A stretch of DNA of 64,000 bases from Arthrobacter sp. Soc17.1.1.1 (GTDB lineage Bacteria; Actinomycetota; Actinomycetes; Actinomycetales; Micrococcaceae), in the NCBI RefSeq assembly GCF_036867195.1, contig NZ_JBAJII010000001.1, positions 1,550,001 to 1,614,000 of the forward strand. The letters are read 5' to 3'. Every line of letters starts with the position of its first letter. Within the stretch, counting starts at the first letter, position 1. The notes under the pieces are model-generated. The model did no database searches and had not been told where the DNA came from. It saw only the letters and a list, made by a program, of their open reading frames with translations. Position numbers and translations under genes: made by a program. Shown one piece after another: positions 26,116-26,898 of the stretch.

Positions 26116-26898
26116 ATGGTGGGGACGACGGTGGCAACGGGCGGGCTGGTCTACGGCATCCGGCTCAAGCAGGATGGTGAGTACCGGTATGTGGGTATCA
26201 CGACCAAGACCGCGAGCCGTCGTTTCCACCAGCATCTTCGGGTGGCCGCCGAGGGGCGAAAAACGCCGTTCTACGACTGGCTTCGAAAACATGACGAGGT
26301 CGATGTCGCAATCGACGAACTGGATCGGATTGAAGGTCTGCCTGAACTCGGGCAGGCCGAGATCGACTGGATCGGCTATCTGAAGCGCCAAGGTGATCGG
26401 TTGCTCAACCTGTCGGATGGCGGGCTAGGACCGACCGGCGTCGTCTGGACAGAAGAACAGCGACAAGCTGCCCGGCTCCGAAGTACAGGCAGAAAGGGCC
26501 TCAGCCGGCCCGGTCCCGCAAATCCTTTCTATGGCAAGAAGCACAGCGACGAGCAGCGGGAACAGTGGACAGTTGATCGCAAGGGAACGAACTCGGGCGC
26601 CAGCAATGCGAATTTTGGGAAGTTCGGAGCGGATCATCCAAGCTTCGGTCACGCGATGAGCGTGGAATCCCGTAACGCTCTTTCGGAGGCGCGGAAGGGC
26701 GCGGGGAACGTCAACTTTGGTAAGAAATTTACTGATGAAACTCGAGCGAAGATGTCAGCAGCACAAAAGGGCCGTCCGAAGCCTGCCAGCCAGCGAAGCG
26801 CTCACACCAGGCATCACACCAACAAGGGCATCGAGAAAGCCGACTGCAGGCACTGCGTCGAGGACTCAGCCACCTTACGCAACACATCAGAAAGTTAA
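26116..26898 (+). CDS. Free-standing GIY-YIG homing endonuclease inserted between nrdE and nrdF
   Basis: A 260-residue protein. The GIY-YIG nuclease domain is at about 8-110: LVYGIRL, then YRYVGIT, Arg in [10 protein letters not shown], Glu in AEIDWIGYL, Asn in LLNLSDGG, so the catalytic set looks intact. The C-terminal half has three NUMOD3-type DNA-binding motifs ([46 protein letters not shown]). It has its own strong GGAGG site. Codon use is less GC-biased than in nrdE/nrdF. It is in operon orientation, 8 bp before nrdF. Such genes usually cut a neighbouring allele lacking them and spread by repair; nrd genes are classic targets in phages. Confidence 0.9.

Follow-up and report, generated by a model that had tools for sequence, protein, structure and literature searches.

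Free-standing homing endonucleases have been worked out mainly in T4-like phages. Homing by such genes is intronless, in that the target gene stays whole and the donor must hence differ at the site, whereas I-TevI, the endonuclease of the td intron, is intron-encoded and its target is disrupted by the intron, unlike the free-standing gene considered here. Between the phage ribonucleotide reductase (RNR) genes nrdA and nrdB lie the free-standing homing endonuclease genes (HEGs) of T4 MobE, listed as active with nrdB as its target (PMC2988022; also PMC3653736), and of Hef, placed there by a reference title in PMC2988022. The portion of PMC2988022 that treats free-standing HEGs also describes co-conversion and marker exclusion, and for the free-standing T4 GIY-YIG enzymes SegF and SegG, to which it ascribes both, it lists targets in neighbouring genes (56, 32). 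An intronless homing pathway is named in the corresponding section of PMC3984707. Within nrd genes themselves, an excerpt of PMC1995217 presents I-BanI as the GIY-YIG HEG of an nrdE intron in a Bacillus anthracis prophage, and the relevant part of a survey of phage RNR genes (PMC3653736) records MobE between class Ia genes, as well as introns or inteins in nrdE/nrdF. Search listings and excerpts from the open-access PMC literature gave no prior description of the HEG treated here.

The window, meaning the whole stretch of DNA that was analysed, comprises 64,000 nt from the soil actinobacterium Arthrobacter sp. Soc17.1.1.1 (GCF_036867195.1, contig NZ_JBAJII010000001.1, positions 1,550,001-1,614,000, forward strand). 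The first-pass annotation had noticed in it a GIY-YIG/NUMOD3 protein (26116-26898) separating nrdE from nrdF, which Pfam confirms, and both flanking genes are intact. The features referred to below are as follows.

23176..23421, + strand: nrdH-like glutaredoxin, first gene of the operon (Pfam Glutaredoxin, 3.5e-16)
23457..23924, + strand: nrdI (Pfam Flavodoxin_NdrI, 2.4e-46)
23921..26080, + strand: nrdE, RNR class Ib large subunit, intact (Pfam; own-genome search)
26051..26077, + strand: nrdE codons 711-719, CxxC redox tail (comparison of congeners and family genomes)
26105..26110, + strand: strong Shine-Dalgarno sequence of the HEG, GGAGGT (duplex -13.2 kcal/mol)
26116..26898, + strand: gene of 260 aa that reads as a free-standing HEG (GIY-YIG/NUMOD3 protein)
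26143..26409, + strand: GIY-YIG catalytic domain, residues 10-98 (invariant Tyr13, Tyr25, Gly27, Arg36, Glu82)
26647..26757, + strand: best NUMOD3 repeat, residues 178-214, of three NUMOD3 stretches overall (Pfam)
26800..26865, + strand: C-terminal His/Cys segment of the HEG, residues 229-250 (invariant H230, R232, H234, C244, C247)
26907..27881, + strand: nrdF, RNR class Ib small subunit, intact (Pfam, 3.9e-94)
26907..26930, + strand: nrdF codons 1-8, HEG-linked 5' head (codon-association comparison)
27934..27974, + strand: palindrome 3' of nrdF, 20-nt arms and 1-nt centre (core single-copy in the genome)

The nrdE gene is the sole PF02867 match in its own genome, and no second operon encoding a class I/II RNR large subunit was detected there besides the one that carries the HEG. 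The encoded protein keeps the catalytic residues of GIY-YIG nucleases (Y13, Y25, G27, R36 and E82 are invariant in 50 aligned sequences), and its predicted structure matches the GIY-YIG fold, the matches spanning about residues 1-112. The His/Cys segment may play a zinc-finger-like role, and dN/dS values of the HEG range from 0.04 to 0.22. At the other end of the operon the palindrome is possibly the terminator, though no T-run comes after it; four copies of CTAGTTGGAAG, one of them inverted, lie within 27901-27974 directly 3' of nrdF, and a 681-aa ORF is found at 28625-30670, 3' of the operon.

The first-pass annotation had suggested looking for an empty site in close relatives, and such sites are carried by all 18 sampled close congeners (L008-L025; NrdF 97-99% identical), in which the HEG is absent and the nrdE-nrdF spacers measure 61-97 nt. 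The HEG cassette stands where this native spacer was, with 35 nt between nrdE and the HEG in the window. Over the nrdE/nrdF bodies the window is about as distant from these congeners as they are from one another; the clearest excess falls in the first 20 nrdF codons (mean distance 0.069 for the window against 0.032 among congeners), the last 20 nrdE codons being barely raised (0.097 against 0.090). As for the empty spacers, a strong stem-loop is apparent by reading in those of many HEG-less Micrococcaceae, L008 and L018 being without it. Four were folded, giving -38 and -40 kcal/mol for L157 and L010 and -6 and -8 for L018 and L008, and the stem-loop may balance NrdE against NrdF output. Spacers of 578-650 nt occur in 6 of 60 fetched HEG-less loci (L164, L167, L176, L202, L212, L215); they hold no convincing ORF and possibly contain other inserts.

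The HEG is patchily distributed. Full-length copies are present in 3 of the 38 genomes of the window's genus, with C-terminal fragments in 3 others. The HEG is carried by 26/395 genomes of the Micrococcaceae sample (nrdF next in 26/26) and by 1/396 genomes of the phylum sample, namely the window's own. A DNA tree was built by a quick search from the nrdE/nrdF bodies of 116 non-independently sampled genomes (26 HEG-bearing, 87 HEG-less and 3 remnant genomes, with L207 omitted). Parsimony assigns to it 15 changes in the presence of the HEG, of which well-supported branches force no fewer than 11, and the window falls within a well-supported clade of 19, 18 of which lack the gene. The idea that the insertion had become fixed is thus not borne out, given its frequency in the family, these 15 gains or losses, and the remnants and broken copies described below. 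The HEG protein tree, likewise a quick search (85 rows; short rows L059, L068, L078, L112 and L145 excluded, L087 and L113-L115 also not included), broadly tracks bacterial families, and long-range transfer therefore looks rare. Separate arrivals within the window's genus are not claimed, because a single clade for its HEGs is unrejected by the AU test (p 0.175, two of the four rows being one genome). Carriage on plasmids was discarded as a candidate, with only 7 weak Bacillus matches, 0 reaching 80% coverage.

Relatives of the HEG occur in at least 80 named GTDB loci, that is, 80 among the matches listed, and nrdE is upstream on the same strand in every one of them. The extrapolated first HEG residue lies from -60 to +200 nt of the nrdE stop in 78 of these 80, the other two being L087, with a split nrdE, and L115, a fragment. 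A common insertion site behind nrdE is thereby seen across distant hosts. By comparison, 53 of the 80 listed loci have nrdF no more than 300 nt downstream, and it is not adjacent in 27, all labelled as Mycobacteriaceae or Nocardiaceae; insertion anchored on nrdF is therefore rejected, and the anchor is nrdE. Phages carry relatives as well, in the corresponding position. Arthrobacter phage Talia1610 (194 kb) has gene 111, a GIY-YIG gene 34% identical, exactly between two RNR genes, and nrdE is upstream in 7 of 9 viral-contig loci, which include L146-L150. Of these seven, L144 is near-identical to a Microbacterium chromosome, and L145 is a 4.6-kb contig of ambiguous viral status; no NrdE match was obtained for the viral-contig loci L151 and L152, nor in the 8.6 kb examined of Gordonia phage GMA2.

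The reading we favour, with a probability of roughly 0.7, is that the gene is a free-standing GIY-YIG/NUMOD3 HEG which homes without an intron into the 3' end of nrdE and that the recoded tail is its self-protection. The protein would cut the 3' end of nrdE in HEG-less chromosomes, and codons 711-719 are the proposed target region as well as the putative protective mark. Repair off the HEG-bearing chromosome would then copy a short cassette, made up of the last nrdE codons and the HEG, plus the first nrdF codons in genomes with an adjacent nrdF, and the native spacer would be replaced. Since the insertion leaves the end of nrdE intact, the HEG-bearing allele would have to be protected, predictably by recoding of Gly713 to Asn or of Met718 to Ala. 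A CNNNG cut site, a guess based on I-TevI, was not used, as the Asn codon AAC retains CNNNG.

What is new here is a link between the presence of the HEG and two short coding stretches, the final nine nrdE codons and the opening eight of nrdF. We compared 26 HEG-bearing with 88 HEG-less Micrococcaceae genomes, excluding three remnant genomes; the HEG-less set (28 of 32 congeners and 60 of 334 other HEG-less family genomes, from the best NrdE matches listed) is non-random and skewed toward close NrdE matches. HEG labels were shuffled within genus, which leaves relatedness inside a genus in place, over 528 variable codons (nrdE 480-719, nrdF 1-324), and the 14 most associated were nrdF 2, 4, 5, 7 and 8, nrdE 711-714 and 716-719, and nrdE 510. 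The last of these (25448-25450) is Phe (TTC) in 14/26 HEG-bearing against 4/88 HEG-less genomes; it lies far from the cassette and may reflect shared ancestry. Asn713 is found in 18/26 HEG-bearing and 4/88 HEG-less Micrococcaceae (9/12 against 0/37 in genus g10), and an altered tail, with Asn713 or Ala718, in 25/26 against 5/88 (p 3.5e-19). In the lone exception, L135, which is identical in DNA to L052, the GIY-motif Tyr13 position is occupied by a nonsense codon. Mycobacteria, in which nrdF is non-adjacent, have Asn713 in 15 of 17 named HEG-bearing loci against 4 of 29 HEG-less ones (p 8e-7), the latter from the best 30 of 57 genomes with one HEG-bearing genome left out. There are two mycobacterial exceptions. 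In L114 the HEG is broken, with just residues 9-127 present and these split in two; L064 combines Gly713 and Met718 with a HEG match over the full length, but differs at codons 710 and 712.

Altered tails do occur without the HEG (5/88, and 4/29 in mycobacteria), the five including the close congener L023, which has Asn713; the tail is therefore not exclusive to HEG-bearing genomes, and such cases may be relics or natural variants. In the window codon 713 (26057-26059) is AAC, for Asn, where 17/18 close congeners have Gly, and nrdF codon 2 is ACT as against AGC in 18/18. Its nrdE tail is otherwise host-like, apart from a silent choice at codon 716 that some HEG-less congeners share, so the Asn713 mark here may be a substitution rather than a donor copy.

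The ancestry of the tail was followed in 34 distinct HEG-bearing Micrococcaceae loci, retained from 48 candidates after duplicate removal. Tail type takes 4 changes on the HEG tree, with 0/200 shuffles as low, against 9 on the nrdE/nrdF body tree, with 36/200 as low; by descent the last nrdE codons therefore go with the HEG more than with nrdE itself. Codon association and tree comparison alike have the flanking codons inherited with the HEG, but such a pattern is also expected if a matching mark were selected for: either this or short co-conversion would yield the linkage of tail and HEG. It is at this point that the most durable alternative enters, in which the HEG is mobile but the tail changes are passive hitchhikers of co-conversion without protective effect, the cut site being elsewhere in nrdE. 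We consider it unlikely, although flank co-conversion is a normal by-product of homing in the account given in that portion of PMC2988022, the linked differences at nrdE 711, 714 and 717 are silent, and both the tracking of the HEG by tail type and the altered tails of HEG-less genomes agree with it. It fits poorly with two distinct amino-acid changes within 6 codons, each accompanying different HEG lineages, with the single exception among the 26 being a HEG that bears a nonsense codon, and with a window tail that is host-like bar codon 713.

Traces of loss are also found. Congeners L004-L006 carry about 30 codons of the HEG 3' end before nrdF, the part that encodes the His/Cys segment, together with a hairpin-like spacer and an nrdE tail of the HEG-less type. 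As they match the C-terminus of the HEG, they are read as remnants, the scar left where recombination at the nrdE side removed the rest of the gene; a conserved small gene of 36 aa before nrdF was set aside on the same match. HEG alignments are split or partial in 6/80 named loci among the matches listed, in addition to which L113 gives a shorter match (44% identity), and the split copies L059, L078, L111 and L112 retain altered nrdE tails. A wider claim, to which we would give slightly better than an even chance, is that a selfish endonuclease circulating among actinomycete chromosomes and phages has repeatedly rewritten the redox tail of NrdE. Asn713 and Ala718 would be passwords that travel with the HEG and shield the chromosome, and after loss of the HEG the old tail would come back or the mark be kept as a relic.

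The first-pass annotation had further proposed that translation of nrdF came to depend on the HEG and that the insertion persisted for this reason. The first part is possible in the window, where nrdF has a very weak Shine-Dalgarno (-0.1, compared with about -4.9 for the 18 HEG-less congeners and -13.2 for the HEG) and the HEG stop ends 8 nt before the nrdF start. By alignment, 16/26 family loci have a 4-nt overlap between the HEG stop and the ATG of nrdF, and 6 others have one of 1 or 8 nt; with the weak nrdF and strong HEG signals this makes coupling plausible. A domesticated HEG, kept because nrdF now needs it, would agree with these observations and with the dN/dS range, and is nevertheless quite improbable: family-wide, the nrdF signal is only slightly weaker in HEG-bearing genomes (median -6.1 in 26 against -7.1 in 88, p 2.5e-4), nrdF is not next in the 27 listed loci already described, and the gene is gained, lost, broken and reduced to remnants. 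Dependence as the reason for persistence is thus unsupported, and coupling is plausibly a local consequence.

Less probable still is a vertically inherited and frequently lost partner or regulator of RNR. Its constant position beside nrdE in the 80 listed loci and the single PF02867 gene in the genome would suit such a role, but its rarity in the family and phylum samples, a tail that follows the HEG tree rather than the nrdE/nrdF tree, and the conserved nuclease residues all weigh against it. An endonuclease borne by an intron or intein has hardly any claim, for although group I introns are known in bacterial nrdE (in sections of PMC3984707 and PMC1995217), both nrdE and nrdF are intact ORFs and no intron family in Rfam matches at E <= 1 across 23100-28700. 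With the empty sites of congeners added, the same observations uphold the earlier view of a free-standing homing endonuclease inserted into the nrd operon, and the gene at 26116-26898 reads as lying outside any intron or intein.

Preferring homing into the 3' end of nrdE has consequences beyond this locus. Actinomycete genomes provide a natural bacterial set that spans empty and occupied sites, dead copies and scars, and the steps of the homing cycle can therefore be ordered and tested. The data suggest that the redox-tail sequence of an essential enzyme may be dictated by a parasite as well as by enzyme function, which matters for how conservation in NrdE is read. The predicted target is precise enough for a check that needs only a single purified protein and a handful of short DNAs.

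Among the described systems, T4 MobE resembles the HEG of the window in being free-standing between two RNR subunit genes; it is, however, an HNH enzyme among phage class Ia genes, whereas ours is a GIY-YIG/NUMOD3 gene anchored to nrdE in a bacterial class Ib operon. I-BanI shares the GIY-YIG family and the association with nrdE but resides in a group I intron within that gene, whereas the present HEG stands free behind it. Gene 111 of Talia1610 is likewise a GIY-YIG gene between two RNR genes, and differs in overlapping both of them and in belonging to a 194-kb phage. SegF and SegG are, similarly, free-standing GIY-YIG HEGs that target a neighbouring gene; their behaviour was shown in phage crosses, whereas here it is bacterial chromosomes that bear the traces of spread, and the neighbouring host gene carries protein-level changes.
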